Shown here: positions 8,703 to 62,644 of the stretch, in pieces
Layout: each line of letters starts with the position of its first letter
How positions within the stretch are numbered: the stretch's first letter is position 1
Origin: Geosiphon pyriformis
Lineage: Eukaryota > Glomeromycota > Glomeromycetes > Archaeosporales > Geosiphonaceae
NCBI GenBank assembly: GCA_016748015.1
Contig: JAAOMT010000375.1
Location: forward strand, 68,962-132,961
DNA: 64,000 nt
Direction: 5' to 3'
Notes under the pieces: generated by a model
Seen by the model: the letters and a program-made list of their open reading frames with translations, nothing else
What the model was told of the DNA's origin: nothing
Databases searched by the model: none
Made by a program: the position numbers and the translations under genes

Positions 8703-8719
8703 CTTAACAGAAAGCACCA
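8703..8719 (-). other. Primer-binding site of Ty3-2 (decayed)
   Basis: The minus strand reads TGGTGCTTTCTGTTAAG two bases from the LTR edge. It is the same site as 1687-1703 with a few substitutions. Confidence 0.5.
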
Positions 8720-8721
8720 AA

Positions 8722-11570: not shown

Positions 11571-11639
11571 ATCTTCTTTCTCTTTTTCATCCCAAATTTC
11601 TAAAAAAGAGTCAAAAAGTTTTTTGAAAGAAGTTTTTTT

Positions 11640-13508
11640 ACTATTCAGTACAATAAATCAAAACCATTTTTGCTTGATTACAAGACTATTGTTGGCTATA
11701 GTATTACTATTATAAAAAAAGCTATTAAAAATTCTGGTTTTGGTGCTAATGGCAGGGATATTGTTTTCAGAAAGAAGAGAAAAAGTGTTGTGCTGAAAGA
11801 TAGTATTACTCATAATATAGCTTCTACTAAAGAAGTGGTTAGGAGTTTTTGGAATTCTAAAGTTAAAGATATAACTGAATTTAATAGTGTTAACATAGAA
11901 AAAGAGTTTCTGGTAGAAAAAACCAGTATAGATTATGGTGAAAGAAATGTGTTCATTAAAGATAATTCTGGTTAGATACCAAAAGAACCAAAATTGATGA
12001 CAAAAAAAGCTTTGGAAACACTATTGAGAAAGATAAATTTTTTGGTTGATGATAATGATAATGTTTTTTTAAATGCTCCTGTGGTCTTTTCTCTCTTTCT
12101 GAAAAATTTGGTTAATGTTTTAATTAAGAAGTTTTTTGCTATGAATATTAGACTAGATAAAATTGCTGGAAAATCATTTTAAGAGAAGCTAACAGTGGTC
12201 AGAAAAATGTTTTCTAAAATCAATGGTTTTGGAAGGGCTTTTACTTTCTTAAAATTTGCTGAGATTATTAAAACAACATTTACTTTTAAATTAAGCTTGG
12301 CACAAGCTTTTAAAATGGCAAAAATGACAAAAATTTTGGTTAATACTAATCTCAAAAAATCTGTTGGGCCTTCAAATTGGGCTGTGGTAATAAAAAAAAT
12401 TCCAGTTGAAATATTGGCTGAAGCTGTACACACTGCACTATCTGAATTTAGTATAATTAAGTCAATCAAGATGCAATTAATAGGTCTCTAACAGAAAGCT
12501 GTAGTCAAATTTAAACAGATTGATTATGCTGATTTGGTTGCAACAAAATAGTCTATCCTTATTAAGAAAGATGTAATACATGTTGCTAAAATAGATTTGG
12601 ACAAAAAAACATAAGATGTAAAAGATACTTACAAAGCACTTTTGTATATTTTACTAATAGGAACAAATATGCATGATATTTGGAATTATATCAGCTTAGT
12701 AAATAAGAAAACCTGTGTTATCAACTGGCACCTAGTTATTTATGCTTGGACCAAGTGTGTAGTTATTTGTTTTGACTCTACAGCTTCTCTAAATGCTGTT
12801 ATAAAAACTATGCTAGTATTATAGAATGCTAATCTACATTGGTCTTATTTGGGCTCTGCCAAATGTGCTAAATATAAGAAATTAGGTTATATATTATTGG
12901 ACTGTGCTTCTGGTAGAAAAAATTCTCTTGGTGCTTCTTTTTATAAGATGCTATCTGAGGAGAATAAAAGCAAACTGGTTTCTATCTATGTTAAGTATTC
13001 AATTTCAATTGCTTACTCTATTTCTTTTGGTGATGCTTCTTGGGCAAAGATTGTTGGTGGATCTTCTTTTCCTCTTCTATTTGCATATAATAGTTTGGCT
13101 AATTCTGGTTTTTTTTCAGAAATAAAATCTTTTCTGTCTGTTGCTAATAAGTTGGAATTATGTTTGATCAATATTGAAAACAGTTTTGCCAATTTTGCAG
13201 AACAAATTGGTGAGTTGGCTAAGAGATTGGAGTTATTTATGCTGGCAGTTTTCCAGTCTAGCTCTGAATGTCAGCTGTTGGTAACTCCCTTATTACAGGA
13301 TCAAATAGGTAATATAGTGATAAGAAAGAGCTTGAATAAGATTACTAGTGGCAAAACTACTATGGTTTTAGACTCATCTGCCTCTTTTGAGGTTGTTAAA
13401 TTAGAAAACATGTTGGAAAGTCTTTCTGCTTTAGTACTAAATCTGTCAGCATGCTTTAATAATTTGGTTTTGACTGGTGGTATGTTTCTTCTACTTTTTT
13501 TTCAATGA
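11640..13508 (+). pseudogene. LINE copy A ORF1 remnant
   Basis: Open pieces at 11670-11975, 11994-12182, 12195-12491, 12642-12824 and 12849-13508 lie mostly in one frame and correspond block by block to ORF1 of copy B. Recognisable parts are the KSKPF leader, KINGFGRAFTFLKFAEIIKTTF, the TNMHDIWNYISLVNKKTCVI block and a C-x2-C motif near 12860 (AKCAKYKKLG). The final stop TGA at 13506-13508 overlaps the ORF2 start as ATGA. ORF1 would be an RNA-binding nucleocapsid-like protein. Confidence 0.7.
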
Positions 13509-14282
13509 GTTGTTTAGTTTGGAAGATTGTCACATGTAATATTAAAGATATGAACAATCTTGCTAAGCAAGAGGATATTATCTATTGGCATAAAAAAATG
13601 AACAATTTGGTCTCTATTGTTACTAAAACAAAATTGAAGGATAAAATTTGTTCATAGATTATGAATAAGTTTAATGGTGTTTATGTATTTACTTCTGGTT
13701 TGAAGTCTGGTCACCTGGACTCTGATGTTGCTGTTATAATGAACATTGGTTTGGCAAAACATGTGTGCAAGATTTTGAAAGTTGCTGATAGACTCTTGTC
13801 TATCAAGCTGTTTTTCAGAAATAAGTTGTTCATTTTAATTCTGGCACTTTATGCTGGTGCTTCACTGGTTGTGCATTTGTCTCAAGTTAGGAAGGTCAAC
13901 TTTTTAATTGCAAGAGCAGTGAATAAATCTTTTTTTGTTATCTTGGGTGGAGATTTCAATAAGAATAATTTATGTAGATGTGTTAGCTTCAAAAAATGTC
14001 TCAATTTGGAGGTGGTAAATTTTCTGTCAGAAAGTTTAGTTGTGAAAAGTTCTATATAGAAAAATTCAAGAAGTGCTGAAAAAACAATAAACTATGTATT
14101 TATTTCTTCAAATTTGGTCAATACAATAATAAGTCATAATATTTTGGATGTTAGTGAGCATTTTAACACTAATTACCAAGCTGTTTTTGTGTTCATAAGT
14201 TTAGATGATCTGTTAGATATGCAATTGAATTTTCTTTACAAATAAGTTAATAGAGATTATTGAAAATTTGACATTAAGAATA

Positions 14283-14286
14283 CTAG
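14283..14286. repeat. Target-site duplication CTAG (left copy)
   Basis: CTAG flanks the solo LTR here and at 15332-15335. Removing the LTR and one copy restores continuity with LINE copy B. Confidence 0.8.
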
Positions 14287-14900
14287 TGTTATGGGTAAAC
14301 TTGGTAAGGTATAGTGGTAATATTTGGTGCTCTAATTTAGTATTCTAAGGTTATATGTTTTTCACAGGGTTGATGGTTATCAGTCTTTAAAGGTCTTTTC
14401 TGGATGTGAATTTACTTGTTGAGTTCTTTGGTTATAAGGCACAAAGTTTTGGTTTTTGCTAATTGCAACTTCTTATAATGGTGAACTTTCTTCTTTGAAC
14501 TAATGAGCGCAGTTATTAGGGTCTGATGTTGTATTTTTGCTCTTCTGGTAAGCTACCAAGATAATGTTAATATCCAAAACTTAGGGAGAGCTTCCCTCTT
14601 TTACCAGGCTATCACGAAGTCTATTTCAAGACAGTCAATTTTTTTATGTTGTTACTTCACAAGAGAAAAATAAAAAAAATAAAAAAAAATAAAAAAAAAT
14701 AAAAAAATAAAAAAATAAAATAAATAAAATAAAAAATAAGTATCCTGTCAATAGCCATGATTAAGAGCTATTGTGCCAGCAGGTTAAGTAGTGAATAATA
14801 ACATGGATTTGAAAAATTGAAGAGATATTTTATTAATATAATTCCATTTTAGTTAATAGCAATTATCCTTAAAAGGAAAAGTATTTAATAATTATGACCT

Positions 14901-14972
14901 GTGAGTTTAATTGACTCTGAGAGTTTAATTGACTTTGAGAGTCTAATTGACTCCTAAAAGTCTAATTTTCTC
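14901..14972. repeat. 18-bp tandem array in the solo LTR
   Basis: About four units of an 18-bp repeat, GAGAGTTTAATTGACTTT, diverging by a few bases. Confidence 0.75.
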
Positions 14973-15054
14973 TTTGGATGTCTTTTTAACTTCTATAGCT
15001 ACTTATTTTTATACATTCTTTTTGTTTTACAGGATTGCTTTCAATTGCTTCACT

Positions 15055-15235
15055 ATTGCTAGCTATTGTTTTATTATTGCTAGCTATTGCTTATTATTAC
15101 TAGCTATTGCTTATTATTGCTAGCTATTGCTTGTTATTGCTAACTATTGCTTGTTATTGCTAGCTATTGCTCATTATTGTTAGCTATTGCTTATTATTGC
15201 TAGCTATTGCTTGTTATTGCTAGCTATTGCTCATA
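15055..15235. repeat. 20-bp tandem array in the solo LTR
   Basis: About nine units of a 20-bp repeat, TAGCTATTGCTTATTATTGC, built from two 10-mers that both end ATTGC. Many units contain the palindrome GCTAGC. The Ty3-1 LTR has this motif only once (TTGCTAGCTATTG near 2425), so the array arose by local expansion. Confidence 0.85.
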
Positions 15236-15331
15236 TTTGTTCTGTGTTACCTCGAGTTGTACCACATTTTTCTTGTCACATTTCTTTGTCATGTTTTTCT
15301 ATAGCTTTTTGGTTTTTCAACTTAAATAACA

Positions 15332-15335
15332 CTAG
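15332..15335. repeat. Target-site duplication CTAG (right copy)
   Basis: Pairs with 14283-14286; the LINE reading resumes straight after it. Confidence 0.8.
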
Positions 15336-18300
15336 TAAAGCTGAGTGGTACAAGTTCAAAAAGTTTACAGCAGCTAATATAGTGATGTTTTCTGATGAGT
15401 TTGTTGTGTCTAAAAAGTTTTCAGATCTGAATGCTATGTGGAATATTGTTTATAAGATGATGTGTTTTTCAGCAAATAAAGTTTTCAAGAAAAAATAGTT
15501 CAAAGATTATGATAATATTTTCACCAAGGAATCTTCTAAGTTTTATAAGTTGGAAATTTTGGTGTTAAGAATTGTCAAGTTTTTACATAAGAGTGTTGAC
15601 AATGCTTTTGAGTCTTTGATAAACTGCTGGGCATCTTTGGACATTAACAAAACTTTGTTTATTCATGCTTTATTGGATTCTGATATGAATATTAATTGTG
15701 TACATTTGGCTCTTTTTAATATGAGAAAATCATATTGTGTCTTCAAACTTGCTGAATCTTTGTAAGCTGAGGAATCAAGAATTAAGTTGGCTATTAATAA
15801 ATGAATGGAGAGTTTTGCAATCAATAAAGGTCACACAATTAAGAATATACTGGAGCATTCTTTTTGGAAGATAGTTTTGGACTATCTGGTTATTAAAAAT
15901 GAACTGATTCTGAAACTTGAACTGGTTAAGGCCAAAGTAGATGTGATTATAAAAGGCTGGACTAGGATACATAAAGTGGTGATAGATTTCTCTAATAATT
16001 GGTTTTATCAATATCAGCTTTTGGAATATGTTTTTGATGATGTTTTTTTGAATGTAATGTGTTTAGTTAGTTTTAATGAGTTGTTTAGTGTAATTTTTAA
16101 TCTGTTTAATGGCAAAAGTGCTGGTTTTTTTGAAGTCTCAAATAAGCTCTGAAAGCATTACAACAAATTGGTCTTAGATATGCTTTTGGTGCTTTTGAAT
16201 TTTTGTTTGTTTTATAAATTGGTGTTTAATGCTTAGAAGAAAGCTTAAATCTTGATGATGCCCAAGCCATATAAATAGAAAAGTGTTCTTATGAATACTC
16301 AACTTATTGCTTTAATTGAGACTGCCTATAAAATTTTTTTCAAGATTCTTTCGAACAGGATTTTTTTGGCATGTAGCACTTTTGATGTTCTATAAGAAAA
16401 CAATTTCTAAGTTTTAAAGAGTACAACTACACAATTTCCCATTTTTGTCATTGGTTTAGTTATTGAAGATGTTTTAGAAAAAAACAGTAAACTCTGACTG
16501 GTTTTGCAAAATATGCAAAAGGCTTATAATTCTGTTAAATGAGAGCATTTTAGGAAAAGCTTAATCAAAATAAAAATGTGTGGCAAGTTTATTAGATTTT
16601 TTGGTAGTATTTACAATAATTGTGTCAATAGGGTTATGACTAATTTTGGGTTAATGAATAAATATCAAGTACATAATAATTTGAATTAAGAGAAAGTGTT
16701 TTTACTTTTTTTTTGACACATATTTTATGATTCTCTTTTGTGTGAAGTCAAGAAACAAGAAAGCATATGTGAATACAGATTGGATTTTTACTTTATTGTT
16801 AAAACTGGTTACATGGAATCTTAGATTGAGTTGACATTTTTCTCACTGCTAGTGTATTTGTCAATGATACTATCTAAATTAGTAGCAATCAAACTACTAC
16901 TTAACACATTTTTAGTATTGTTAGTGAGTTTTTTTGAATTAATAACATTTCTATAAATAATAACAAAACAGTGGTCATTTTCATTAATTGTAGAATTGGA
17001 AGTTCTTTATTGTCAATCAATAGTTTGTCTATTTTTATTGCCAAAAGGGGAGAATCCCATTATTATTTAGGTATTTTTCTGTTTACTGAAGAGTTGTTAA
17101 AGCCTAATCTGGCCAAAGCATATTCAGATATCTGGTTTTTTTTCAATCTTATTTTAAAGAAAGCCATTTTGGATAAACAGTTTTCTTATTTGGTATTAGT
17201 GGTTTTTTATCCTATTGTTAACTACTGAATACAGTTCAGCTTTGTGTTTATTCGTGTATATAATAAGTAGGATGTTTTGATTTGCAAAGGCCTGAAGTTG
17301 AAGACTAGTTTGTCTCTCAATTTTTCTAGTGACACATTCTACTATCCTTTTTTATATGGTCTTAAAACCTTTGAACAAGTTCAGACTAAGGGCAAATTGG
17401 CTTCTATTGTGTGTTTTGCAAACTCTGGTGGGATCTTGGGTCAATTATTTTTACACAGATTTCATGACTTGTAAGCTCTGTATTAGTGTTCAGTTTATTC
17501 TTTAAGTTCTTTGGCTTGTATTAAAATCAGTCTATCTAATAACTTTTTGGCAGATGTGATTTGTGTTTTTCTTGAGTACAATTTGTCCTTGGGTGATCCA
17601 ATAAGCAATTTTTTTTGTTTTTGAGATGGTACTTCCATGTTAACTGTTTTTGGTAAGTCTGGATTTTTTCTCTCATTTCAGTAGTATGGCATAATATTTG
17701 TTAAACAGCTTTACAGTTATAATAGTGCTATTTTTAATTAGAAAACCTTTAGACATTGGAAAAAATTAGACCCACGTAGTCTTGTTCCTAACTGGTTTAA
17801 GCTTTTTGTTAACTTTTTTAATAGTATAGCTTTTTCTCTTATCTGCTTCTTTTCTTTAAATATTGCTAATACTTTAAATGTTTTGGGGTCTTATAAGTTT
17901 GGGATTGTTTATGATAATTTGCTAGATGTTATAACTGACTGTTTTTCTGTTTATATAGATGAATCTCTAAAGGACTTGGGAAGTGCTAACATAAAGACTG
18001 GTGTGGCAGTTTTTTTTAAGAACATAAACTTGGGTTTAGGAGTTAGGATTTTCAGTTTGATGTCTTCTACTTTGGTGGAGTTCCAGGCTATTATATTGGC
18101 TCTTGAATGTGTTTTTTTTTTTAGCTTGGTTTGTATTATGATGGACAATTAGACTGCTTTGGATGCATGCAAATTAGAATTGGGTCTAAAGTATTCAGAT
18201 TTTTGAAATTAATATTGGATTAAGCATCAGCATATTATTAACATTGTTTGGAAAAAGAATTTAAGTGTTAGCTGGCACAAAGTAAAGAGTTATTTAGGTA

Positions 18301-19365
18301 TCTTGGGTAATATATATACTAATACACTTGCTAATGCTGCTTTTTTTTCTTCTTGGTATTTTTTCTCCTAATTGAAGAAGCATTACATATTGGCCAAAGA
18401 TGATATTATTTCTAATAGTTCTAAATATTTTGTTTATGAAATCTTTCAGTTTATTTATTATGTATATTGGGAAGTTGGTTTTGGTTCTAAAGTCTTGAAT
18501 AATAGTTTGTTTTTGAATATTAATTGGCTTAGCTTATTCTTGATGTGGCATCTCAATTTACATATGACTGCTGGTTTTACTAGTAAGCTTATTGCTAATA
18601 CTTACACATATTTTATAAAAGCTTTGCATTATTAGCTGTTAGTTATTGTTTGGAAGTGCCTATATAATAAGTGTTATCCCAATGTATTATGTTTGTATTG
18701 TAATAATATTAAAGTTTTAGATCATGCTTCTTTTTGTATGGTTGATGTTTTTGCTTATTATTAATTGTTGGATGCCCATACAGCTGGTTGGAGTGTAATT
18801 TCTGGTCTTTTTTGTTTCTTTTTATGTGTATCTTAATTGTTGTTTTTCTGTGTTTTAAATATTGTAGTATGTATGACTTTTTGTAAGAGTTTTGTCTTTA
18901 GAGATTGGTTTCGAGAGACTGCATCTGTCTTTAAAGATTCCAAGATTGTAAAACAAAAGGTTGTAAACTTTGTGTATAATTTCTGTCTTGCTTTTAGAGA
19001 TGATATTTGGTTAATTTATGTTAAACATTATGCTTTTATAGAAAGAAATAGGCTGATACTAAGTAATAGTTTGGCTTCAGTTTTAGTTTTTGGGCTGTCT
19101 TTAATGTTATCTGTTAAAGTGGTTAAATTGCTTGGTATTGCTAAAGCATTTGGGGCTAGTTTTGGATTTTGTAAATCTTGTTTATTTTTTTTAGGTATTA
19201 AAGATTCAGTTTTGGTGTATATAGGTGCTTAGTGTTGTTTTAATTGGCTTAAATGACTGATTATGTATAAAAAATACATAATTCACACCTAGTTTAGATT
19301 AATTATTTGATGTATTGTATTAGACAGTATTTAAGCCTTACTCATTAAATAAATAAAATAAATAA

Positions 19366-21599: not shown

Positions 21600-21769
21600 G
21601 TTATAAAATATTTTTAAATTTAAAGTTACTTTGAATTTATGAATTTATTAAAATTAAGACTAATTTCTTGAAAACAGTTAAATAACTAATTAAATTAGTT
21701 TTTTGTAGTGTTATTTATTTGAAACAGTTCAAAAAATGTTTTTTTTGATAAATTTTTTTTTATTGTATT

Positions 21770-21960: not shown

Positions 21961-21999
21961 AATTAATTAATTAAGTTAATATTTAGATTTTTTTTTATT

Positions 22000-23940: not shown

Positions 23941-26900
23941 TTAACGACCAAATAATTTGGACCATTCCGGTGGGATTCTCCAACCATGTTGATTAGCAAC
24001 TCGTATGTACGCATCCATGGCCTCCTATAATATTGAAAATCGTTCATTTTAGTGGATGGTCAATGTTCGATAATTCAATAACGATTGTGTTATTCTTACG
24101 CTGGGATCATATTCACTATTCCAAAAACGCGAGTCAAGTCTTGCGGGATTGGGGTCCAAAGAGCACAAAGCCATTTTAACCTAGAAAAATAACCAAATTA
24201 GCGGATGAACCATTGGAGCAAAACAGAGGTCACGCCTGTTTTGTTCATCACCTGCAGTAATACAGCTTCCATGTTATATACCGATGACCAACCGTTTTCA
24301 GTGGAACTTCCCAGTGTAAGAAGATCCATGCATATAGAGCCACCAGCGGTCACCTTAAAGATGGTGCAAAAACTTAGGAAACCTGTTCGAACAAAAAAAA
24401 CGGTTTACCCTGTCATTTGACTTACGTGTCCACCACCACCTTCCATGAATCTCAATAGTCTGGGACGAATTACACGAATGTACCTTGATCAGACAAGTAA
24501 TTTCAAAAGTCGAATTAGTTTGTTAATTTTCCACTTTAAAACATTATGTCAAAAATACTTACGGAGGATGATATGGATATTCCGGGGAAAATCGGACTTC
24601 CATATCGATACTTTTAACTTTGTACTTTTTCATATCTTGTGCTAAAGGCAATGAGGGATCAAAGTCTTTCATTTGTACCACCTATTAGAGAAATAAGCTT
24701 GTAAATTGACGAATATAATTCTAAGCAAACACTTCATTCTTCTTTACCCATTGATACATAGACTTCAGTTTATCCGTATTCACGGAAAATGCGAGATCAT
24801 TCGAAGGGTTGGTTTGTTTCCTTACAATTTGACACAATTCCTGGGAAATACGGTGCGTAGCAGTCTTTGATGAGGCGTCTAGTATATTAAAACAAGAGAA
24901 TGATTAAATAGATCATTCTCAAATATCAAAATATAAATCATGATTACTTGCCTGGAGCTGGTAATAAATTCGGATCGAAACCTTGGCCTAACGTTTATTA
25001 AAGATTAAAATACCGAGAAGCTTCAGCCAAAATTGAAAAATAAAAAAACTGTGAAAACCTACCGTCATTGAAGTCAGGTTCATCCTCAGGTTTCTTTGGC
25101 TCACTTGGTGGAAAACCGAAAGCATCATCGTCATCAATTAAATAATCTTCAGAATAGTCATCATCCTGTTCATCATCCATTTCCTCCTCATCTTCATCCT
25201 CGCCATCACTATCTTGATCAGCCCTTCCCTTTCCCTTTCCCTTATATTGATGACCAATTTCTATTTCATCCTCATCCTCATCCTCGTCGTCCGCCGCTTC
25301 ATCTAAAATTTCATCATCTAATATAGATCTGTTTGCAGAGAAGTCACGACCTACTACTAATGAACTTTTACTATGATGGGAAAATTGATAATTGAATGGT
25401 TCAACTTTCACCGAACTTTCCTGTGGAGCCTCATTTGCAATTATTAAAAAATCTCGTTTAGGTATTTGTAAAGGGCTGTTGTTCAGCCAAACAGGAGTGT
25501 ATGCAGGGTCCAACTTTATGAATTCTGGAGTCCTTCCTCGACTTGAACTTTGCCTTCGAATGAATGGATTCATGGCAGGGGATTTTGCGTTATTACGCAC
25601 AGGAATAGGTTGAGCATATTGGAGGCTGGGTACAAAACCCGGAGACCATTCGTCTTCATACGAATCACTCACAGGGTCTGTTGGGTTTCGGAGACACTCC
25701 ACAAAAAGGTATCGTGTTGTAATCCATGATTCGTCAGAAACCACAAGATAAGGGTTGGTACTGCATATAATGATGATTTCAGAAGGCACCAAACCAAAAA
25801 CAATATTGTGTTACAAAAATTATTTACAAATACCTTATAAATCGTGAAGGCCTATTTACAATTTCACTTAAAGCCATGCATTTTGTGACTACCAACATTG
25901 AATTTTTCCACACACCAGTGTCTTTTCTAGGATAGGCAGCTCCTGCATAAGTAGCAGATGTTCCGGCTTGGAGTGAATGATAAACGCCATCACCAAAAGC
26001 CCGCCCGTGAACAATTTTTTTCCAATTAAGACATGTTCTTCGATTAGAAGAAACCATTTGAGCCCATTAAATGAAAAGCAGTTAATAATCAAAATACCGA
26101 ATAAAGTATGAAAAATAAATTATAGATGTCGACAACTACCGAATGATCGAGTGCCAATTACCGAGTGGTGAGCCATGAAAGGCGTACAATTCCCCCAAAG
26201 CTAATGCGAACAACAAAAGGTTCAGGAAAGGAAAGGGAATGATAATGTTCTAAATTTCAAAATCAAGTGACCAATTTTACATGATAATCCTCTTACGTTG
26301 ACCCATCCGTTCTATTCTAAGCTCCTCTTTTGCTTTCTGGAAGTTCGATTCCTTATCTGGGGAACTCATAATCATGACAAATTGTCTCCAATTTCCATAA
26401 CTAGATTCCTCATTGAATTGGACCTTTTCTTCTTCAGATTCTAACAATCGTAAATGCGTACGGTTCGAGGAGATAATCCATGACAAGAGTGGGAAACAAA
26501 GTGGATCGAGCTTATCAAGCTCAGCCTTGAGTATCTTCTTCTGAGCGTACTGTACCATTGCCGACACACTCGGCAACCTGTTAATGACGGCTTGGATGAG
26601 TAAATAATTTACGTGATCATCATTACCTAAAAAATTACACTCTGTACGACGGCATAATCGGAAAGGCAAATAAACCGGTCTGCTAGGAACAGCCGAAACC
26701 GGGAATATTATTGGGAAATCAGTTATTAGATAAGCAGTAGTGACTTCTAGGACTCGTACAGAGGTAGTTTGATTGCATCTGTTTACAGTGAATGATTGTC
26801 CTGTTTCAGGATTATAAACCTCCAGCATATCATTTACTTTCACTAAATCTTCAAAAGGCTTCCAGCCATAAACCTCGTATCCGGACTTCTGGGAAGCCAC

Positions 26901-28806
26901 CCCTATGGTCCCATGTGTATCGCTCCAGTCAACTACAAGTGAATTATTACCCTCATGCTTCGCGGTAGTAGTCACACCAATAGCTCTGGATGGATATGGG
27001 CTTAAGTTTTTTGACTGAATTGCCACGTAGCACAATGATATTAACAAGTCAACCACAACAGGACTGCTGACCAAAACGGCTTCGAACAAGTTGCCTAATC
27101 CAACCTGTGCTTGATGTTCACATAAGGCGGCATTACAGACAAAGGGCCGAATCGAGGAAATAGCTCCATCGTGAGGGTAATGGCAGGTCAAGCAATATTT
27201 GGTCGAGAGCAAAATTCTACGACGAAGAAAACGTAATAAAACCAGCAGAAAGTTATGGTTTTTGGAGGCACTAGAAATCTCGTTCTTCTCAGCTTCAAGG
27301 TAACATAATTGTCCATGTTGCACCTTATCTTGAAGGATACACTTTTCAATTTGACTTTGAAATGCTGGATTCTCACCGTTGAGAAAATTGGGCTCCTTCT
27401 CCTTGTGTCTTTTAAGATCGGCAAACTCAGCACCATCCCAGCCAATACCAAACCACATGTAATCACATAACATGTCAAAAAATTTGCTGCGCAGAAGTTC
27501 TGTTAAAGTCCAGGAGAGCACAAAATGATCACTCTCTAGAAAATCGTCTTTGTGATGAGCATGACTCGGCACACCTCTTGGTAATGCTGAGGTCAAAATG
27601 GTGTATTCAATTGGAAACTGTTTTTTCAACCATTCCTTCACTGCTGCGCAACCACCCTTTATCATTAAATCTGATTTTTTTTGGCAAGCTTGTGCAACAA
27701 CTCCTTCCAAATCGATGTAACTCGGTGAAAATTGTATGGTGCACACGAGATAGCTAATTTTAATTAAAAGGAAAATGAGAATGGGAAATTCCCGCGCTAA
27801 AAGGTATAGAGAATCCTCACCGATTAGGATCAAGATTCCAAGCTTCGCAAGCCTCGAAACTCAGGCCAAGCCGACTGACTGGCATTGATACAGACACTTT
27901 GTATCCAATCTCATCTGCACAAAGAAGTTCTCCGTGGTATCTTGATATGTTCACAGAATGAACGATTAGAAACAGAATCAATAATCCTAAGAAAAGCGAG
28001 GACAAGATCGAGGTGTGTCTAGACCCTTACTTCCAATGCTTTATTTCGAGCAGATCCCTTTCGAGCAACATGCTGGGGGTTTTTACAATTGGATTTTCGG
28101 GAGCAATAATTTTCAATAACGCATTAGTTGTCGATCCGCCATGTTCCCTTAATGCATTTGCATTAAGGTCCTTGGGTATTTGAATCCGAAAATGGTTACA
28201 TAACATGTGGATAATTGTTGCCATAATTTCGCCGACCGTTTGGTTGGCAATGTTTGCTTTCTCGAGAAGTTTGGCGGCTAAGAAGCAATAGAAAAGCTAG
28301 AATCAGGAAAGGGATAATTCAAAGCGGTCTTTTAGAAAGGTGGGTAACATACCTGAATTTGTTTCATTATCCACTGAGCCGTCAACACATACAAACCCAC
28401 TGAATTTCGATGGATAGGATCGTAAGGAGGTGTCTGTTCAGAATTTGAGATAATTGCGAGAAAGCATTAACAAAATATAGGAAAAGGTAACGGGTGATTT
28501 GCGATGGTAAAAAAAATGATGATGGTTGTAAAATTCTTCATACCATTGACAAATATTTGCACGGTGAAGGCCTTACGTGATTTATAAGTAAAACGGAAGC
28601 TAAGCTCAGGATCTTGAAAATCAAAGCCTTGCAATTTCAAAAACATTAGAGCGAAAAGATTATTAAGATGAATCCATTAGTCAGAAAAGCGAAGAATCGA
28701 AAACTACACAAGGGTTACCTTTTACCAAAGCAGTGCTCTTCGCACTCAACCTACTGAAATATTCCTTTAATTTTTTGACATCTTGCACAAAATCCTTTCG
28801 ACCCAT
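23941..28806 (-). CDS. PARP-like ADP-ribosyltransferase fused to a ubiquitin-conjugating (E2, UBE2Q-like) domain
   Basis: Sixteen exons: 28806-28719, 28627-28544, 28433-28353, 28277-28031, 27940-27821, 27753-26297, 26200-26140, 26037-25834, 25760-25063, 24987-24952, 24878-24748, 24681-24563, 24483-24426, 24353-24252, 24180-24100, 24024-23941. They sum to 3,651 nt (1,216 aa plus stop). The N-terminal ~580 residues have no domain I can name. The PARP catalytic region is about 580-805: FHGSPLGNWHSIIR (His701), HGRAFGDGVYHS (Tyr732), NPYLVVSDESW (Pro784 where PARP1-type enzymes have Glu). A Ser/Pro linker and Asp/Glu-rich stretch (~930-1005) with KGKGKGR follow. The E2 domain is about 1026-1200 with YPYHPPYIRV and GGSICMDLLT (Cys1136 presumed catalytic). 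Fungal PARP-UBC fusions are a known architecture. Predicted role: mono-ADP-ribosylation coupled to ubiquitin or ADP-ribose chemistry; substrate unknown. One intron uses a GC donor. Confidence 0.9.
24879..24951 (-). other. GC-AG intron in the PARP-E2 gene
   Basis: The intron starts GCAAGT and ends TAG. Using the nearby GT four bases later puts the next exon in a frame with an early stop. Only the GC donor continues into the E2 domain (DASSKTATHRISQEL). GC-AG is a known minor class of U2-type introns. Confidence 0.8.
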
Positions 28807-29990
28807 GGTAGGGTTGGGCGTTAACTTGTACGCGTTTATTCAACCACTGAGACTATTGGGAGATTAAAAGAAAAGCGAGTAATAGGTTAAAAACTGAGAA
28901 GAATAGTAAAACGAGCGTTTATAGTTTGTCGACAAATTCGTTCTGGCCGTATAATTAAATGATTCTAAAAGGTCTCGTGTAACTTCTCTCTGAGGTGAAA
29001 TTGATAAAGAGGGCCAAAAGTGTAAAGTGGGCATAACTAAGAGAACAACTATACAACTCTTTCCACCAGTCAGCAATGGCAATTACCACTTCAGTCGAAA
29101 ATTATAGGAACTGGCAGGAATCAGTTTTGAAAGGGAAAGAATACCAACCTAACCGATGAATAAAAAAACAAAAACACCTACGTTAAAAAGGGATATGTTG
29201 AAAGAAGAGAAAGACAAGAGAGAATGAAAGTCGCGTGGATCTTTGAAAAATACAATAGGGTTTGAACCTGAGGGTAAGGTGGGTGTTTTATACTACGCAG
29301 TGGCATAGACCTTCAGACGTGAACGTCGTCTTGGTAGACAGGTGGGGGCGAGTAGGTATAAACTGGAGTCCGACAACTCCGAAACTTTGAGGACAGCAAC
29401 ACCGTTATTACTGCGCATTCTTTAGGAATTTGCATTACCAAGTTTCCTATCTCAAATTGCACGTGGGATTAATGTAATTCACGTTATAATTCTATAGTGC
29501 GAATTAATCTATCAGCAAATGTTAAAGCTTACCAGTAACTATTTGGTCTGATTGGCGAAAAAATGAGAGCTTTGAGCTAACCAAGTCAGCAATCACAATT
29601 TTTATTGATATATTAGCAGCTCATTGGAACATAATTTGGAAGAGGTGTAAATGAGAAAATAAAAAATAAAAAATAATGTCGGTTCGCCTGTTGGCCACTG
29701 AGATACATTCTGTTGATTTGAGCCCTTTAATATCAATGCTCTCAACCTATATAAAGAAAATTATAAATTTTTGCCAAAGTTCCCATCTTAAATACCAATC
29801 CGAGCCGCCCAAAGACCAACATAATCCCAATAGAATATGAAACTAAAAATATTGCAGAAAAAACTCAAAATGAAGGATGAAAAAATGCGACTATGCAAAG
29901 AAAACACAAACTATTATGTTTACAAGAAGGCATATCCAAAAAAATTAAAAGAAAAATCAAATGCTCATAAAAGAGCCTGACATCGATGCC
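28807..29990 (-). other. Intergenic region between the two island-1 genes
   Basis: Both neighbours read on minus, so this holds the promoter and 5' UTR of the PARP-E2 gene (right after 28806) and the 3' UTR of the RRM gene (left of 29991). The short frames are unsupported. No RNA gene recognised, although 29280-29470 is the least AT-rich part and looks unique. Confidence 0.4.
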
Positions 29991-31967
29991 TCATTGAGCG
30001 TAGATGCCTCTCCAGTTACTTCCATCCGTGTCCATTCTTTCAAGTAATGCTTCTTTGTTCGAGATATACATTTCGTTCATTCGTTGAACGGGAATAGGTT
30101 CTAATGGATCAATTGCGACTGGGGGTAGTTGAGAGGGTACTGATGCAACGGGCGCAGTAACTACAGGAGCGGTTGCAGGGTAGGAACCATAGGTAGTAGT
30201 AGGTGCTATACCAGCCAGTGGATTGTAAGCACTTGTCTGCTGAGGAGTACTGGAACGTTTTGAACAAGTAAATGTTAGATGAATGCGATATTCATGGTTT
30301 GGAGCATAAAATCAATGAATATCGCAAGTGAGCTTTTTCTAATTGCATCTTAACCTACCGGTAGGAAGTCGTTATCGCGGTTTTGTCATTCTGTGATCTT
30401 CCCCAGGAAAGCCTAACACGTGAATTACCTTTTTGTTTTCGAAACAAAGGAGGGGGAAATTTTTAGAGGCTTTAAAACGCCAAGCTTATTAAGATATAGT
30501 ATAAATTTCAAGAATACCAATTGGATAATGCTGCATTTGATTGATTGCCATTTCTGCACTTTGTCGATGAACGAATTGAACAAAGCCGCAACCTTTACCT
30601 GGTGGGATTTTTACATAAGTGATTTCACCAAATCCTGCGAAATAACTAGTAAAAGAAAGTAGATAATTAGAAAAAGATCAAATTGAAAATCTTGAGTTAA
30701 AGAGCCAAAAAAAAATTGATATCCAACCTCCTTAAATCATCTTCACTATTGACGCCCGACAGACCGCCAACGAAAACCGTGCTGTTATTGGGATCGTTAT
30801 ATTGATTTAGAACAGGCGCTTGCGTAGGTTGAGGATAATAACCCGTCTGGACGCCACTGACGGCACCAACTCCACCAGTCTTGTTTTTTGGAGTGGCGGT
30901 AGAAATACGCATGGGTCTATTACCGCAGAATAAACCTTGCATCTCAATAAGGGCACGCTGTTGTTCTGCTTCGTCGGCAAAGCGAACAAAACCATAACCT
31001 GCGAAGTTTAAAAAAATGAATAAATGAATCGTTGTCGAATATTTTTTAATTTTGAAAGACATCCATGAGCATGACAAAAAGATTTTTGATCGTGCTATCC
31101 TATGTTTTTTCACCTCTCGACATGCCAGTCATTGGATCTGTCATGATCTTTGCAGATTTACAACTTTGATATCGCTGTTGAAAAGTGGTCTATAGGGAAA
31201 TTCAGAAAAATAAAGGAGTCATTTCAATAAATCTCAACAGCTTATCATGTTACTTTTTAAGGATTAAGGTATTCCTACCACTAGCATCCATTCATTCACC
31301 TCGGGTCCTAAATCTCCCACAAAAATGGAAAATTCTGGACCACGATCATCCCTACTCCATGATTGGAACATTGCACGAGCAAAAATTGAAATTAATACGC
31401 AGGGTATCATAAGGAATAATCGGGGATCATGAAAAGATAGGTTATAAGGAAATCGAGAAAGAGCTTACTTGCGATCAGTTAATCCACCCCCCGAAGCCCA
31501 GTTCAGTTTAAAAACTCTTTGGGTATTGGGAATGAGCGTACCATTTACTTGGCTAAGTGCCTTGACAGCAGCAGCATTACTGACAAAATCGACAAAGCAA
31601 TAACCAGCATTTTGTCTAATCAATTTCAAGTCGAGAAAATCAAGCAGAAGTTAGGATAAAGTAATTTTTAAAATCAAAGGAACTAGTCAATTTATTATTT
31701 TCAAAAGAACGCAGCTAACCCGGTGAACTTGTCACGAATGAACTTGACATTGACTTGTTCACCTAGCTGGTACCATACGGTCCGAATGTAATTTTCGTCC
31801 ATCCAAGGTTCCAGCTCGCCCATCCTACAAAAATTTTTTAAGAGTGAAGAATGGTTTTGGGAAAAGGAACGCGGAGCGAAGTCATACCATAGGGTGGTCT
31901 TGTTATCCATTCCGCCTCCATATGGAGAGAGTTGCTGGGAGTATTGATCATATTGCTGGTAAGCCAT
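29991..31967 (-). CDS. Triple-RRM RNA-binding protein of the Nam8/Csx1/TIA-1 type
   Basis: Nine exons: 31967-31888, 31824-31720, 31615-31469, 31351-31279, 31189-31114, 30998-30728, 30645-30518, 30428-30359, 30249-29991. They sum to 1,209 nt (402 aa). RRM1 starts at about residue 24 (TLWMGELEPWMDENYI, RNP1-like GYCFVDF). RRM2 starts at about 118 (SIFVGDLGPEVNE, CKSAKIMTDPMTG, RNP1 GYGFVRF). RRM3 starts at about 235 (STVFVGGLSGVN, RNP1 GCGFVQF, ending RLSWGRSQND). A short Tyr/Gln-rich N-terminus and an Ala/Pro/Thr-rich C-terminus flank them. This order matches yeast Nam8 (a U1 snRNP-associated splicing factor) and fission yeast Csx1 (mRNA stability in stress), both TIA-1 relatives. Which role applies here cannot be told from sequence. 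All introns are GT-AG. Confidence 0.92.
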
Positions 31968-32285
31968 TTTTTGTGTTTAAAAGGACAAGAAGTGAGAAGG
32001 AGGGTAGACGATAAATTTATGGCTTCAACAACAAAACAATAGTAAAAGGCGATAGCGAACGTGAACACCCTTCCTAAAAAAATTTTGGTTTTGCTGATCT
32101 GATGATTCAGCATCTCCAGGTTTAACTTCTTTATCAGTAAATAAGTTTGGTCTGATAGATGAGATAGAAGATAAAAAATGGATAATGGAAATATAATTAC
32201 GTTCTTTTATGTAATTTGCAAAAGAAATTATTTTCCTGTAATATTTACGAAAACTTTGGATATTAAGGAGGAAGGTGGTCAAATT
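31968..32285 (-). promoter_or_regulatory. Upstream region of the RRM gene
   Basis: Contains the 5' UTR and presumed promoter. No TATA box or factor site can be named. A sharp drop into A/T-only sequence at about 32285 marks the edge of the island. Confidence 0.35.
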
Positions 32286-34466: not shown

Positions 34467-35148
34467 TATTATAAATTAAAATAATAAGCTAATAGATAGC
34501 AAGAAAAAACAAAATTATAGAATGATAGAAATAATCAAAAAAAAATTACAATATAAAAGTAAATTAAATAAGTAAAGATTTAATGTGTGTGATTAGTTTT
34601 ATAAAAATCACAATCACAAATTTTTTCTGAAAATCTGAAGATAAAAAAATAAACCATAATTGTTAATAAGATAATATTGTTGCTATTATTTTATGTTTTA
34701 ACTTAATAATTTTTAAAATCAATAACAGATATCATTGTGTTTTTCAATTGTTTTTTTATTTAATAAATTACAAGAATAAGTAATTACTTTTTAGGCTAAT
34801 TTTAACAATACAAATCAAGAAAAGAAAAAGATAAGATATGTAAATGCCAACAAATAATCTTTCATTTCAAGATATTCAGATACTTGAAGGTAGAGAAAAA
34901 AAAATAAGTAATATGAAAGGAAGTAATTAATAGTGAGTTTTATTTTGTTATTTGATTATGTTTTTCTACAGCTAAGTAACTTAATACTTATATAACTATT
35001 AAAAATGATCAATAATTATGTCAACAACTAAATTAATGATCAGGTCAACAATCAGATCAATGATCAAATTATTGATTAGGTCAACAGTTAGGTTATTAAT
35101 CAGATCAATGATCACTATCTAAAAATAGAGTGGCTAATTATATAATAT
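34467..35148 (-). repeat. 3' LTR of Ty3-3, first part (family 2)
   Basis: Starts TATTATAAATT, which aligns base for base with TGTTACAAGTT at 35149. Over the first ~100 bases nearly every difference from the nested LTR is G-to-A or C-to-T. A 12-bp array lies at about 35010-35112. It resumes at 35861. Confidence 0.8.
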
Positions 35149-35860
35149 TGTTACAAGTTGGAGTAACAAGCTAACAGATAGCAAGAGAGAACAGGATTGT
35201 AGGGTGATAGAAATAATCAAAGGGAATTTCAACTTTAAAAAGCGAATTGAATAAGTATGGATTCAATGTGTAAGATCAGTCTCATAAAATATCTCAGTCA
35301 CTATTTTTTTCAAAGGTAAATAGGGAATCTGAAGGTAGAGGGATAGTCCATACTGTCAACAATTGATTACCACTGGTATAATTCTATGCCTTATGTCGGC
35401 ACTCTTAGAATTCAATATCAGGTATTAACTTGTGCTTTTCAGTCACATTTATTCAAATAATCTTCAAATGCTACAATTATATATGTCAAAAAAAGGCCAA
35501 CAAGTAATTTTTTATCTTTAAGAGGTTCAAATACTTGAAGGTAGGAAAAGGAAAATTAGCAATAAGAGAAGGATTGAGATAAAAGTTGTTATTTTATTTA
35601 TTTTTGATTATTCAAATACTTGTTATTACATGTTTTTCTACAGCTAAAGATTTATCATTTATATAACTATCAAAAGTGGTTAATGATCAAGTCAATGATC
35701 AGGTCAATGATCAGATTAATGATCAGGTCAATGATCAAGTCAACAGTCAGATTATTGATCAAGTCAATGATTACTATTTAAAAATAGGGTGGCTAATTAT
35801 ATGACATCAGTGGCTAATACATGTGATAACTAATAAAAACTATGAGTTTCAACCGTAACA
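35149..35860 (-). repeat. Nested solo LTR (family 2), youngest LTR here
   Basis: 712 bp with perfect termini TGTTAC...GTAACA and ATAT duplications at 35145-35148 and 35861-35864. It has clearly more G and C than the LTR it interrupts, so it inserted after much of the decay. It contains a 12-bp TGATCA array at 35682-35771. No internal element remains. Confidence 0.85.
35682..35771. repeat. 12-bp tandem array in the nested LTR
   Basis: Seven full units plus a partial one of AATGATCAGGTC, most containing the palindrome TGATCA. Counterparts lie at 35010-35112 and 42736-42826, so this array is ancestral to family 2, unlike the family-1 arrays. Confidence 0.85.
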
Positions 35861-35916
35861 ATATTAGTGGTTAATACATATAATAACTAATAAAAAGTAT
35901 TGGGTTAACTCCATCA
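35861..35916 (-). repeat. 3' LTR of Ty3-3, second part
   Basis: Continues the LTR after the nested insertion (ATATTAGTGG..., matching ACATCAGTGG in the nested copy and ATATCAGTAG in the 5' LTR). The end is decayed (about CCATCA for CCGTAACA), so the exact boundary is approximate. Confidence 0.65.
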
Positions 35917-42188: not shown

Positions 42189-42913
42189 TGTTATGGATTA
42201 AAGTAACAAGTTAATAAATAGTAAGGAAAAACAGAATTGTAAAGTAATAGAAATAATCAAAAAAAGAATTACAATATAGGAGTAAATTGAATAAATAAGA
42301 ATTCAATATATGTAATTAGTCTTATAAAAATCACAGTCACAAATCTTTTCTGAAAATCTAAAAGTAGAGAAATAGTCTATAATTGTCAATAAAATAACAC
42401 TACTATTATTATTTTATGTCTTAATTTAGCAATTTTTAAAATCAATAACAGATATTATTGTGCTTTTTAATTATTTCTTTATTCAATGAATCACAAAAGT
42501 AAGCAATTGCTTTTTAGGCTAATTTTAACAATACAAATTAAGAAAGAGAAAAGATAAAGTATGTAAATACTAATAAGTAATCTTTTATTTCAAAATATTT
42601 AGATATTTGAAAATAAGAAAAAAGGAATAAACAATATAAAAGGAAGTAATTAATAATGGGTTTTATTTTATTACTTTGATTATATCTTTCTACAGCTAAA
42701 AAACTTATTACTTATATAGTTATTAAAAATAGTTAATAACCAGATCAATAATTAGGTTAACAATTAGGTCAATAATTAGATTATTGATTAAGTTAATAGT
42801 CAAATTATTAATTAGATTAATGATCACTATCTAAAAATAGAGTGATTAATTATATAATATCAGTAGTTAATACATATAATAACTAATAAAAAATATAAGT
42901 TTTAACCATAACA
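42189..42913 (-). repeat. 5' LTR of Ty3-3 (family 2)
   Basis: 725 bp with termini TGTTAT...ATAACA. It aligns throughout with the LTRs at 34467 and 35149 and has the 12-bp array (42736-42826). Followed by the GTAT duplication at 42914-42917. Confidence 0.85.
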
Positions 42914-45900
42914 GTATATAAAACTACTAAACAAAAAGAAAAAACACATTTTAATATTAAAACAACTACCTATAATTCTGATATTATCAAAGATAACAAC
43001 CTATGTATTTTAATTTTTATTTTTATTTTAATATCAAAAAAATATGCTATTGTCTTATTAGTTACTTTTGCAATTCTCAATTTTTTTAATAAACTATTAA
43101 TATAAATGCTAATTGTTTTAGTCCACAATTTATATAAACATTTTTAAATATCTAAAAATTTTTTTGAGCAAAAAAAATTTAAGCAGCCAAACTTAAAAGT
43201 AAATTTATTAGCTCCAATAAAAAGATTACTTATATATACTAAAGCTTTTATAAACTATAGTGGCACTAAGTCTTAAAAACTCAATCTTTTTAACAATAAA
43301 ATGTTTTTTAATTTACAATTATCTTATGTTTGTTTAATAATTTGTTCTTAAAAACAATGCCAGAATGCTTTAAAAAACAAATTACATTAAAATAAAAAAA
43401 TTTTTTAGAATTACAAACATTAAGAAATACTTAGATTCACAAAATACATTAAACAAATTGTTTATTAAAGATATTTTATTATTTAAAAAAATTTCTACAA
43501 TACTTACTAAAAAATTATTAATTGAGTTAACTTTTAATTTAATTAAATACTACAGCAAATTTATAGATGTTTAATCTAGAATTTGTAAATTCAAAAAACA
43601 GTGCTTAAACAACTGGCCAAAAACTTCTATTGTATTAGAAAACCAAACTATTGAAACTATTTTTGTTTTTGTTTATATCTGCTTAAAAAATTTTAAAACA
43701 TAATACAAAGTTTTATTAAGAAAGTTTTTTGGTAAATTGGTTTTAAATTTAAGCTTTTTTCTTATTATAATATTTTATTTTTGATATATATTTTTAAATA
43801 CAAAACTGAACTATATATAATAATTTACTATAAGCTATAAAATTACAGAAATTAAATAAAAAAACTGTTTATTTAACAATGTTTTCTTAAAAACCAAATT
43901 TGAAAAAAATCTGACATTTGAATAAACTTTAACAAACTTAACTTAAATATGTTATTTATAGACAAAAAAATTCCCAAATATTTATAAAATTCACTATGTA
44001 TAACAATAAAAATTGGCTGATTATTAATGTACAAAACAATATTAATAACTTTTTAATTAATAAAAATAATCACTGTTTTGTTATTATTAATAAAAATGTC
44101 ATTGATCTTAAAAAACTTACTAACAATATTCAGAATATATTACATCAAAATCTAATCATACTTTATCTAAATTTTATTATTAATAAAAGCACTAACTATA
44201 AAAAAAACAATTTTTTTCTACTAATTTCTACTTTATCTATGTTTATTATAAAGTTTGTGTTAATTTTATATTCATATAAATGGTTGGTTTTTTTATATTA
44301 CACAATAAAAAATCATAAAAAATTTTTCAAAAAAATAGTGAGAAAATTTTACTTTAATTTAACTTATTAAGCATATTATAACTATTTAAAAAACCAAAAT
44401 TAGTTATTATTTTATTGTTTTTGTTTTTGTAAATATTACCAAAAAACTCAATAAACTTATTATATATCTTAATATGTCTTAAATTAATCTTTAAATAATA
44501 TTATTCAACTAAGTTATAAGTTTTGCATATATTTTATAAAACCAATTAAAGTTTTTGTCTCTTTTTTAAAGTATTTTCTATAATTAAACCAACAGTAAAT
44601 ACAAAAAATTAAGTTAAAATACTCTTTAAAATTAAGAAATTATTATCTTAAAAAATATTAAATTTACTATATACAGATAAAATATAATCAAATAAAATTT
44701 TAAACAAAATTTTTTTAGCTGTTTTAATTAAAGCAAAAGATCTGATGTTTATAAAAACACTATTTTAATCATAAAATTTAAGGATTATTAAAACTTATAT
44801 TCTTTTTTAAAGACTTAGAACATTACTAATAGCCAAACAAAAGTTTAATAAATTCAAAAAACAATCTACTATTATATTATTATAATATTTTAATAATTTA
44901 TTAAAAATATCAGATAGGCTAACCACTTTGTTATTAAACAAACTACCAATTATTAAACCCAATTTGTTTATGTTAATTTTATTCATTATATAAAAAAAAC
45001 TATTATTTTTTATATAACTTAATAATACATATTATTAAAATCATAAATTAAGCAAAAACAAAAACATCTTATACTTTTTTATTTATTTTATTATAATTTT
45101 ATTAATTTTAAGCTTTATTTTTTCTAGCTTCAAAATTAAGTTCTTTTTAATTACTCAAAATCATTTTACAAAAAAGCCATTTTAAAACACTCTTTATTAT
45201 ATTATTCTTATTAAAAATAAAATTTTTTATTTATTTCTTAATTGTCTTCTTAATAAATATATTTTTAACTATTTCTAACTTATAATATTTGGATTTATGA
45301 TAACTTTTTTTGACTTTTAACAATTGTTTAACTATTTTAGTATATTTTATCTGTAGTTAACTAAACTTTAATAAAACTATTAAATTCAGACATATTACTT
45401 AAACTTAATTTTTATTTTATTTTAATAATTAATAATTATAGCTTAAAAAATTTTAAAGATTATTTGTTTCTTAAATAATTAAATTTATTAAATCAATATT
45501 TAAAAAAAAGTTCATTAATTAATTCTAACATCACTTTTTTTAATACTTTCTATATTGTATTCAAATCTTCAAGATTTTAATAGTATTAAACTTATTTTAT
45601 ATTATTAAAAATCTATTAAATAAGCATTTTTCAAATTATAATTATATAGCTTTATCTGTATTTTTTGTTTTAAACTTTTAATAATTATTATTAGTTTGCT
45701 TGTAAATACTATTTAGACAAATATTTAATAATTTTTCTAAGTCAACTAAAATTACAACTGTCTTGTAATCTGTATTAAAAAACTTGACTACTAAATTAAT
45801 ACTATAATTTACAATTACTAATATCAAATATTTGTTTAAAAAAATGTAATTAATAATCTTTTTAATTTTTTTAGAATTGTTTTAAATAGAAATTTTGACC

Positions 45901-46341: not shown

Positions 46342-46659
46342 TAAATATAAATATAAATTATTTTATTAATAAATTAAATACAAAAATTTGTTTTTAATAT
46401 TAATATAATATTAATATAAGTTTAAATAACCAATTATATATAAAAAATATGTAATTTATATTTATTATAAACATATATATAAATTATATATATAAATAAT
46501 AAGAAAGTTAAATTTAATTAAGGCAAAAAAAATACATAATCTTTTTACTTTAAAATATGAATATAAATTATACACTTTTTTTTTGAAATAAAATCAGATT
46601 ATTAAACCAATTTTTTGATAAAATAATTATGTATTATCTTTATAATTTTTATTTTATTA
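46291..46659. repeat. ATA microsatellite and AT-rich spacer with LINE tail
   Basis: 46293-46340 is a TAA/ATA microsatellite. 46425-46500 resembles a decayed plus-oriented LINE 3' tail facing copy B. No gene. Confidence 0.5.
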
Positions 46660-46799
46660 TTATTATTATTTTTTTATTAAAGTTTAATGAATGGAGTTCA
46701 AACGCCACCTAGTACTATACATCATATAAATGATCTAAACTAGATGCGAATCATGCCTTTGCCATATGTGACCAGACACTCAGACTAGTCAGAACAACA

Positions 46800-49700: not shown

Positions 49701-51486
49701 AAAGGACCTTGCGAGCTGTTTTAATCAAAGCAATAAAGCGGATATTTGTAAGAACCCCCTTCCACTCATAAGATTTAGGAATTATCGAGACCCAGGCTTC
49801 CCTCTAAGGTCCAGGCACTGACTCACAATCCAAACAAAAATTTAAGAGCACCAAAAGCATATCCAAGACCGACTTGTTATAGTGTTTCCAAAGTTCATTA
49901 GTAATACCAGAAAGACCAGCCACTTTTCTATTGGGCAAATTTAAAATAACACCAAACATCTCTTTATAACCAATTAAATATATTACATCAGAGAAGGCAC
50001 CATTGAAGACATGATCCAAAGGCCAAAATTGTCTTGCCCAATCACCAGAGATATTAGAAGCCACCTTATGTTTCCTAGTCCAACCCTCCATGATTCCATC
50101 CACCTTAGATTTAACCAACTCAGACTCCAAGACCAACTCCCCACTATTTACCAAATGATCCAACACCACTTTACAAAAAGGACACTCCAAAACACTTCTA
50201 ATGGTGTGACCTTTATCTATCTCAAAACTCTCTATTCTCCTCTCAATAGCCCGCCTTATACTAGATTCTTCAGCATGCTTAGATTCTAACAACTTAGAAG
50301 AGCAATAAGACTTCCTCACCTTAGCCAGCCCAGAACGGATCGCATCAAAACTGGTGCCAGAAAGAAACAGAGATTTCATTGGCAAAGTGCCCACAGAATC
50401 AAGCCTGTTTTAAGTATTCAACAACAAGGCAAAATTTCTGCCAGAAACCAACCGAGAAGTCTTTACCAGTTTAGACACAAGTAGCTCCAGTTTATGAAAC
50501 CGGGAAGATACCTTATTAAAAACACAATTAAAACTCTTAAACCATTTTTTTTTGAATGTTTTACCAGCCAAAAGAACCATAATCTTACAAACAATGTCCC
50601 ATATTGCATCCAGATCAAAAAACTGCTTAGCTGCAACAAACTCATCCAAGAACATAACAGCATTAGCAGCTGTAGCATTCCTGAATTCTGACCACTTAAT
50701 CTTACTGGCATTTTTGATATTATACTTCTAATAATCTCTATTAGCTTGTTTGTGCAATAAGTTCAACTGGACATCGAGCAGGCCACCCAGTTCTACAGAA
50801 ACATAAACAGTCTTGTGATTGGTATTAAAATAGTCTTCAACGCCATCTACACCATGATCTATCATTGCACCAACCAAATTAGAAGAAATGAACACATAGT
50901 CAATTGTCTTAGTAACACCACGAGAATTGCACCAAGTAGGTGACTTCACAAAAGAGCTATTCCTCAGAGAGTTAATCAAACCCAAATCAAAAAATTTTTT
51001 GAAACTGGCACATTTGCATGAACCATCTTTATTAAAATCACCACCAAGAATAACAAAAGAAGACTTATTAACGGCTTTAGCAATGAGAGAGTTGATCTTA
51101 CCAGCCTGAAAAAACCGAACCACTGATGAAGCACCAGCATAGAGCCCCAAAATAGACACTGAAAGTTTATTTTTGAAAAGCAACTTGATGGATAGGAGCT
51201 GACCAGACACCTCAGAAATCTTGCAGATGTGTTTTGCTAAAGAAGAATTCATGATAATTAACACCCCAGCACCCAAAAAACCAGAATTCAAACCAGAAGT
51301 GAAAACCTGAACACCATCAAATTTGTTAGCCAACCATGGGTGAACTTTCTCTTTAAGCTTTGACTTTGTAAAAATAGAAACCAAATTGTTTATATTCTTG
51401 TGCCAACGAATAATATCATCTTGCTTTACAGGATTGTTCAACCCATGAACATTACATGTAGCAATTTTCCATACCAGACCACTCAT
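46800..51486 (-). pseudogene. LINE copy B ORF2 (endonuclease-RT-RNase H polyprotein), broken
   Basis: ATG at 51486 overlaps the ORF1 stop. The endonuclease (51486-50728, 252 codons) starts VWKIATCNVHGLNNP, has VILGGDFNKDGS and SRGVTKTIDYVF, and ends with a Y-F-N-T-N-H block where D-T-D-H is usual. It then stops at a lost Trp. RT pieces at 50394-49804 (AGLSGITNELWKH) and 49527-49162 (RKAYDFVGWEHL, FVDDTI intact). 49068-48769 and 48615-48310 continue the thumb and linker. RNase H at 48108-47379 retains TDGS, VELQAI, SDSQ and VDAL. A C-x2-C-x7-H-x3-C finger is at about 47343-47296 and the C-terminal domain at 47339-46800. Target-primed reverse transcription would occur in the nucleus. Confidence 0.85.
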
Positions 51487-62540: not shown

Positions 62541-62644
62541 TATTTATTTATATTATTTATAAACATATTACATTTATAAAATCAGTTAAATAAAAAAAGA
62601 TATAAAATAAAACCAATTTTAAATATATTTAATTATTTTTATTT

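Follow-up and report, generated by a model that had tools for sequence, protein, structure and literature searches.

The 64-kb window analyzed here, which is part of contig C263 in an assembly of Geosiphon pyriformis (124.7 Mb, 406 contigs), contains retroelements with many in-frame stops and host genes with open frames, which raises the question of what mutates the repeats and leaves the genes intact. A first-pass annotation of the window proposed that a process similar to repeat-induced point mutation (RIP) or the deamination of methylcytosine acts on the repeats. The alignments of many genome copies, the symmetry of both strands, the independence of the copies, and the sparing of genes uphold this proposal. 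Mutations from C:G to T:A arose after insertion, separately in each copy and on both strands, at CpG first and 4- to 5-fold more slowly at other cytosines, where a 5' T was favored, and genes were spared. Repeat-directed cytosine methylation followed by deamination is the explanation toward which we lean. The repeats of the window are as follows (CpG o/e, observed/expected CpG ratio).

11571..19365, plus strand: LINE A, a decayed long interspersed nuclear element (LINE) with 29% GC, many in-frame stops, and a CpG o/e of 0.05
46642..52800 (5' limit approximate), minus strand: LINE B, a younger LINE copy with 38.5% GC and a CpG o/e of 0.22
62499..64000, minus strand: LINE C, a partial LINE of the LINE A family, cut by the window end, with a CpG o/e of 0.07
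43795..44788, minus strand: LINE D, a heavily decayed LINE fragment with 15% GC and 0 CpG
34467..35149, plus strand: copy 1 of a repeat resembling a long terminal repeat (LTR), with 19.5% GC and 0 CpG
35149..35865, plus strand: an LTR-like repeat of a subfamily other than that of copy 1, directly abutting copy 1 and less decayed (29.6% GC)
42191..42860, plus strand: copy 3 of the LTR-like repeat, in the subfamily of copy 1, from which it differs by 108 transitions and 4 transversions (34469-35148 against 42191-42860)
14243..14263, plus strand: the LINE A stops TAA (14243-14245) and TGA (14261-14263), for which the matching codons of LINE B (minus strand) are CAA (50746-50748) and TAG (50728-50730)

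The 683-base LTR-like repeat starts with TATTA/TGTTA, yet most of its copies continue 3', and its identity as an LTR is putative. LINE A has a short tandem array of tattgctagc-type units between two coding parts (15060-15240).

We aligned 31 genome copies of the LTR-like repeat, 22 of the LINE A family (3' 1.4 kb only), and 20 of the LINE B family (1.1 kb). These copies were the best-scoring matches to decayed queries rather than a genome-wide census, and, thus, mutation loads and their uniformity are biased. A site was counted as an inferred C or G only if at least two copies were unmutated at that position. The states of alignment columns served for counting only, with no element being rebuilt, and minus-strand LTR-like loci were reoriented before counting.

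When transitions and transversions were counted in these alignments, as the annotation had suggested, transitions were in excess by 12.5-fold among pairs of LTR-like copies and by 16.3-fold among pairs of the LINE B family. Some single LINE pairs differed by 0.159 transitions and 0.0027 transversions per site. The decay signal of the repeats is much stronger genome-wide than within the window. The earlier statement that paired copies differ mostly by transitions holds for the many-copy alignments; however, the pairs on which it was based belong to different subfamilies and are weak tests. LINE A and LINE B, an inter-subfamily pair, have a transition/transversion ratio (ts/tv) of 2.4-2.5. The LTR-like repeats at 34467 and 35149, previously described as differing almost only by transitions over ~100 bases, showed 26 transitions and 7 transversions in the first ~130 bases, with A or T in the 34467 copy for 25 of the 26. 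However, over their full length, they represent two subfamilies with 65.6% identity and a ts/tv of 2.0. Both codon differences between LINE A and LINE B listed above, which had been noted before, were confirmed at their coordinates.

The 670 columns of the LTR-like alignment included one invariant C and one invariant G, in contrast to 353 A or T columns. This near-absence of invariant C and G columns establishes that the direction of change is C to T and G to A. Of the inferred C and G sites, the fractions changed by C>T and G>A, respectively, were 0.475 and 0.503 in the LTR-like set, 0.519 and 0.412 in the LINE A family, and 0.233 and 0.182 in the LINE B family, and the remaining substitution classes did not exceed ~0.009 per site in any of the three sets (0.004 in LINE B). 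In every copy examined, about 20-50% of the C/G sites were gone. Both strands were equally mutated in the LTR-like set, and tests for strand-biased tracts of mutations in the LTR-like and LINE A sets found none.

The variance of pairwise differences in the LTR-like set equaled that of shuffled data, and the mean r2 between sites was near the null. These copies are in linkage equilibrium and have no common mutation history; therefore, each was mutated separately, after insertion. The LINE B set was also inside the shuffled range, and real subfamily structure was present in the LINE A set. In one LINE pair (L050 and L051 on contigs C217 and C208, with flanks L090-L093), most mutations were common to both members, and later divergence amounted to 205 transitions and 9 transversions over ~5 kb (filler N excluded). 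This pair is either a duplicate of an already mutated copy or two alternative haplotypes.

CpG was the leading target. Among the CpG sites of the LINE B set, 255 remained CG, 443 were TG, 489 were CA, and 66 were TA, which corresponds to the loss of 80% of CpGs; only ~14% of other C were lost. In the older LTR-like and LINE A sets, 99% of CpGs and ~34-57% of other C were lost. The cumulative hazards at CpG and non-CpG sites were 0.80 and 0.15 in LINE B (a ratio of ~5), 2.25 and 0.53 in LINE A, and 2.36 and 0.60 in the LTR-like set (~4 in both). Since the ratio of 4-5 is alike across the sets, it points to one process at different ages. A 5' T raised mutation at non-CpG sites (in LINE B, 0.235 for TCA vs 0.068 for ACA), and the 5' base had little effect within CpG (0.39-0.48 in LINE B). 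The double mutation of one CpG to TA was observed at 0.053 in LINE B vs 0.18 expected under independence; therefore, a CpG is no longer the prime target after one change. Such rarity is the outcome predicted for a process that uses methyl-CpG as its substrate and spreads the changes over replications.

The suggestion in the annotation that many changes fit CpA to TpA did not turn out to be the rule. CpG leads (changing to TpG or CpA), followed by all C with a preference for a 5' T. The fraction mutated was 0.425-0.71 at CpG vs 0.13-0.45 at CpA, which led in no set. A Neurospora-type CpA preference was rejected because CpG leads in all sets. All C contexts were mutated, and, thus, the caution that a single-context rule had not been shown was justified. 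A proposed check with RIP indices did not detect the process. The composite RIP index was negative in LINE A (1.00 - 1.30), LINE B (0.76 - 1.44), and LTR-like copy 1 (0.91 - 1.32) despite the loss of 20-50% of C, and, therefore, composition-based surveys would report no RIP. The decay of the repeats is RIP-like in effect, yet it lacks the CpA preference that is a feature of RIP in ascomycetes.

Two blocks in the window served as spared controls.

24000..32000, minus strand: host gene block with open frames and a CpG o/e of 0.84
54536..61222, plus strand: host genes, among them an SNF2-type open frame of 1226 codons, with a CpG o/e of 0.95

The CpG o/e of these host genes (0.84-0.95) contrasts with that of the repeats (0-0.22). 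A partial duplicate of a methyltransferase gene on contig C318 (L041 3736-5066 and L042 4050-5150; ~32 kb apart, inverted, >900 bp, 90% identity) differed by 67 transitions and 34 transversions (ts/tv 2.0) and had kept 34 of 39 CpGs, being one case only. These counts differ from the 205 and 9 of the LINE pair on C217 and C208 (Fisher p ~1e-11). The duplicate is more diverged in transversions than the LTR-like or LINE B copies, yet it is not hypermutated.

A copy of the ribosomal DNA (rDNA) was mutated. In the 18S copy on contig C320 (L068 1301-3154, L089; near the contig end), strongly conserved positions showed 25 changes, of which 23 were C>U or G>A, and 14 of these 23 were at CpG. The AML1, NS7, and ITS1 primer sites each carried one G>A. 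A search with a universal 18S pattern gave no match; the same site carries a C>T in this copy, which was reached via 5.8S. It was the only strong 5.8S/18S copy found, and no functional rDNA unit was seen in the assembly. The near-exact matches of this copy to glomeromycotan primer sites include an ARCH1311-like site of the Archaeosporales type. Since the rDNA copy was mutated, the process is not strictly confined to transposons, and one low-copy gene duplicate escaped. This mutated copy is also relevant to barcoding by rDNA because its mutations lie at conserved and primer sites.

All 43 of the non-shared stops in LINE B derived from TGG, CGN, or CAG codons. In-frame stops were present in approximately half of the best 150 genome matches to RVT_1, with TGA being the commonest. 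Since some long open frames, up to 1307 aa, persist among these matches, active sources of the elements may still be present. A reverse-transcriptase match at C238:347570-348049 lies within a 1307-aa open frame, which suggests that some of the elements are not dead.

The search for RID/DIM-2-type methyltransferases recommended in the annotation was made with PF00145. Among its matches in the assembly, L044 is a DNMT1-type gene with an RFD, two BAH domains, and the methylase. Two BAH-containing paralogues (L043 and L045) are DIM-2-like or DNMT1-like, and two genes (L046 and L047) are DNMT2-like as judged by motif. L041, of which L042 is a partial copy, encodes a methylase without a detected BAH, and RID and Masc1 have no BAH (PMC7862722). 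However, motif VI of L041 contains ENV, and the best match of L041 among solved structures is a bacterial C5-methylase; therefore, its RID identity is not established. No RID-specific match was found for L041 in a comparison made without reference RID sequences.

We propose that the repeats are recognized and then methylated at cytosines, with a DNMT1-type enzyme acting on CpG and further enzymes of the DNMT1 superfamily acting more weakly on other C. The 5-methylcytosines would become T across many nuclear generations through deamination that may be spontaneous or enzyme-assisted and would be poorly repaired. After the loss of either C, a CpG would no longer be strongly targeted, and the conversion of Trp, Arg, and Gln codons to stops would kill the copies. 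The loss of CpG as TpG or CpA, mostly by one change per CpG, and the presence of DNMT1-superfamily genes (L043, L044, and L045) support this explanation. The transposable elements (TEs) of Rhizophagus irregularis are CpG-methylated (PMC8647823). A CpG-type C>T bias in fungi accompanies Masc2/DNMT1-type enzymes and has been ascribed to methylation and deamination, with CpA or CpT signatures being linked to RID (PMC4352252). Because that study ties CpG signatures to Masc2-type enzymes, we prefer methylation and deamination, which we regard as moderately probable, over RID-type RIP. However, some points weigh against this preference. The methylation of the Geosiphon repeats is itself deduced from sequence. 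The non-CpG mutations (14-57%) require substantial non-CG methylation, which at that extent was not shown for any arbuscular mycorrhizal (AM) fungus in the literature examined. The two-copy gene duplication L041/L042 escaped. Moreover, LINE load was uncorrelated with a clock of other substitutions, in contrast to the prediction for a purely gradual process, although these copies had been chosen by similarity and the counts for the clock were small.

True RIP, in which a RID/Masc1-type enzyme scans duplicated DNA premeiotically and introduces bursts of mutations at C, with a specificity that in Geosiphon would put CpG first and favor TpC, is a less probable but serious alternative. The C>T excess is large and exclusive, affects both strands and all C contexts, is independent in each copy, and spares genes, as expected of such an enzyme; a non-TE repeat (rDNA) was mutated, and L041 offers a methylase gene without a detected BAH. 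However, CpA was not preferred, CpG double mutations were rarer than a single round affecting both strands at the same time would allow, the features of L041 described above do not establish RID orthology, and the two-copy duplicate L041/L042 was untouched. We consider it rather unlikely that Geosiphon has a genuine repeat-scanning mutator with a grammar of its own (CpG, then TpC, then any C). If this were true and tied to a premeiotic phase as in ascomycete RIP, the mutations left by it would document, within the genome, a cryptic sexual cycle of the AM-fungal lineage; Glomeromycotina has for a long time been regarded as a subphylum with neither sex nor RIP.

Without any repeat-directed process, dead elements could have decayed neutrally, with an ordinary AT bias, over a long period, which would agree with an AT-rich genome in which intergenic DNA has only 13-19% GC. 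However, transversions and A:T to G:C changes were 20- to 100-fold less frequent than C>T, and L041/L042, with its low ts/tv, retained CpGs, and more transversions than the LTR-like or LINE B copies, refutes neutral decay as the sole cause, which makes it very improbable. Still less credible is the possibility that the long-read data gave rise to assembly or base-calling errors at methylated cytosines. Repeats are difficult to polish, and methylated motifs give transition-type errors in nanopore data. However, in the same column and local context, approximately half of the copies had C and half had T, and the sites were unlinked. A context-driven error would affect all copies alike and would not give 16-20% divergence. 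We rejected a sequencing artefact on these random per-copy patterns at identical sites. The explanation to which we attach the least weight is APOBEC/AID-like editing of single-stranded cDNA in retrotransposition. Some APOBEC3 enzymes prefer TpC, and the TpC preference of the repeats recalls them. However, C>T and G>A were equally frequent and unclustered by strand, the leading target was CpG, and the rDNA copy was mutated too. APOBEC-type single-strand editing was rejected on strand symmetry.

The decay in Geosiphon and the RIP of Neurospora crassa and other Ascomycota (RID/DIM-2) both involve C:G to T:A changes on both strands of repeats, stops in TEs, spared genes, and AT-rich relics. However, Geosiphon differs in that CpG rather than CpA comes first, the composite index is negative, RID is not established, a two-copy duplicate escaped, and the host belongs to Glomeromycotina. 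The TpCpG RIP-like hypermutation of Microbotryum and other Pucciniomycotina (PMC5381629) is similar in that CpG leads, a 5' T is favored, and the pattern was found by the alignment of copies. The load is far heavier in Geosiphon, where 20-50% of all C were lost per copy and the mutations reached every C context, whereas 1.7 target sites out of 35 were mutated per element in Microbotryum. In a later study based on the composite index, Pucciniomycotina were described as lacking RIP-like signatures (PMC12210899). The CpG signature of Masc2/DNMT1-type enzymes in Tuber and Microbotryum (PMC4352252) shares with Geosiphon the change of CpG to TpG/CpA, a DNMT1-type enzyme, and TE specificity. However, a strong non-CpG component at a constant rate of 1:4 to 1:5 is added in Geosiphon. 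R. irregularis belongs to the same subphylum, has a DNMT1-type enzyme, and targets repeats by CpG methylation; in contrast, Geosiphon shows the irreversible mutation of repeats, which was not described in that report (PMC8647823). The rRNA pseudogenes of filamentous ascomycetes (PMC5555474) are likewise decayed copies of rRNA genes that escape concerted evolution, and Geosiphon differs from them in having a single assembled 18S/5.8S copy with CpG-biased changes.

RIP signatures were stated to be absent from Gigaspora (PMC8647823, PMC7082362), and we found no report of the present pattern in Geosiphon in the literature searched, which did not include the Geosiphon genome paper. In Geosiphon, which is related to AM fungi, the pattern looks like a repeat-directed mutation defense in a fungal group for which no such defense had been established. 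RIP is described in the literature as a trait of ascomycetes; the Geosiphon case would place a RIP-like defense in an early-diverging lineage or show an independent origin. Such a defense can be overlooked because the loss of half of all C still leaves the standard composition index negative. The published assembly has 129 Mb with 64.35% repeats and 29.25% G+C (PMC9453076). The present results make it possible to test how a genome with 64% repeats is controlled in the Geosiphon lineage and whether a sexual phase is required for the mutations.

Another repeat pair in the window, at 6-2211 and 7069-9141, has 67% identity, with 31% and 23% GC, respectively, and a ts/tv of 2.7. The AT-rich spacers at 9200-11560, 19400-23900, 32000-34460, and 44800-46600 have 13-19% GC and a CpG o/e of 0-0.36, and are probably fully decayed older repeats.

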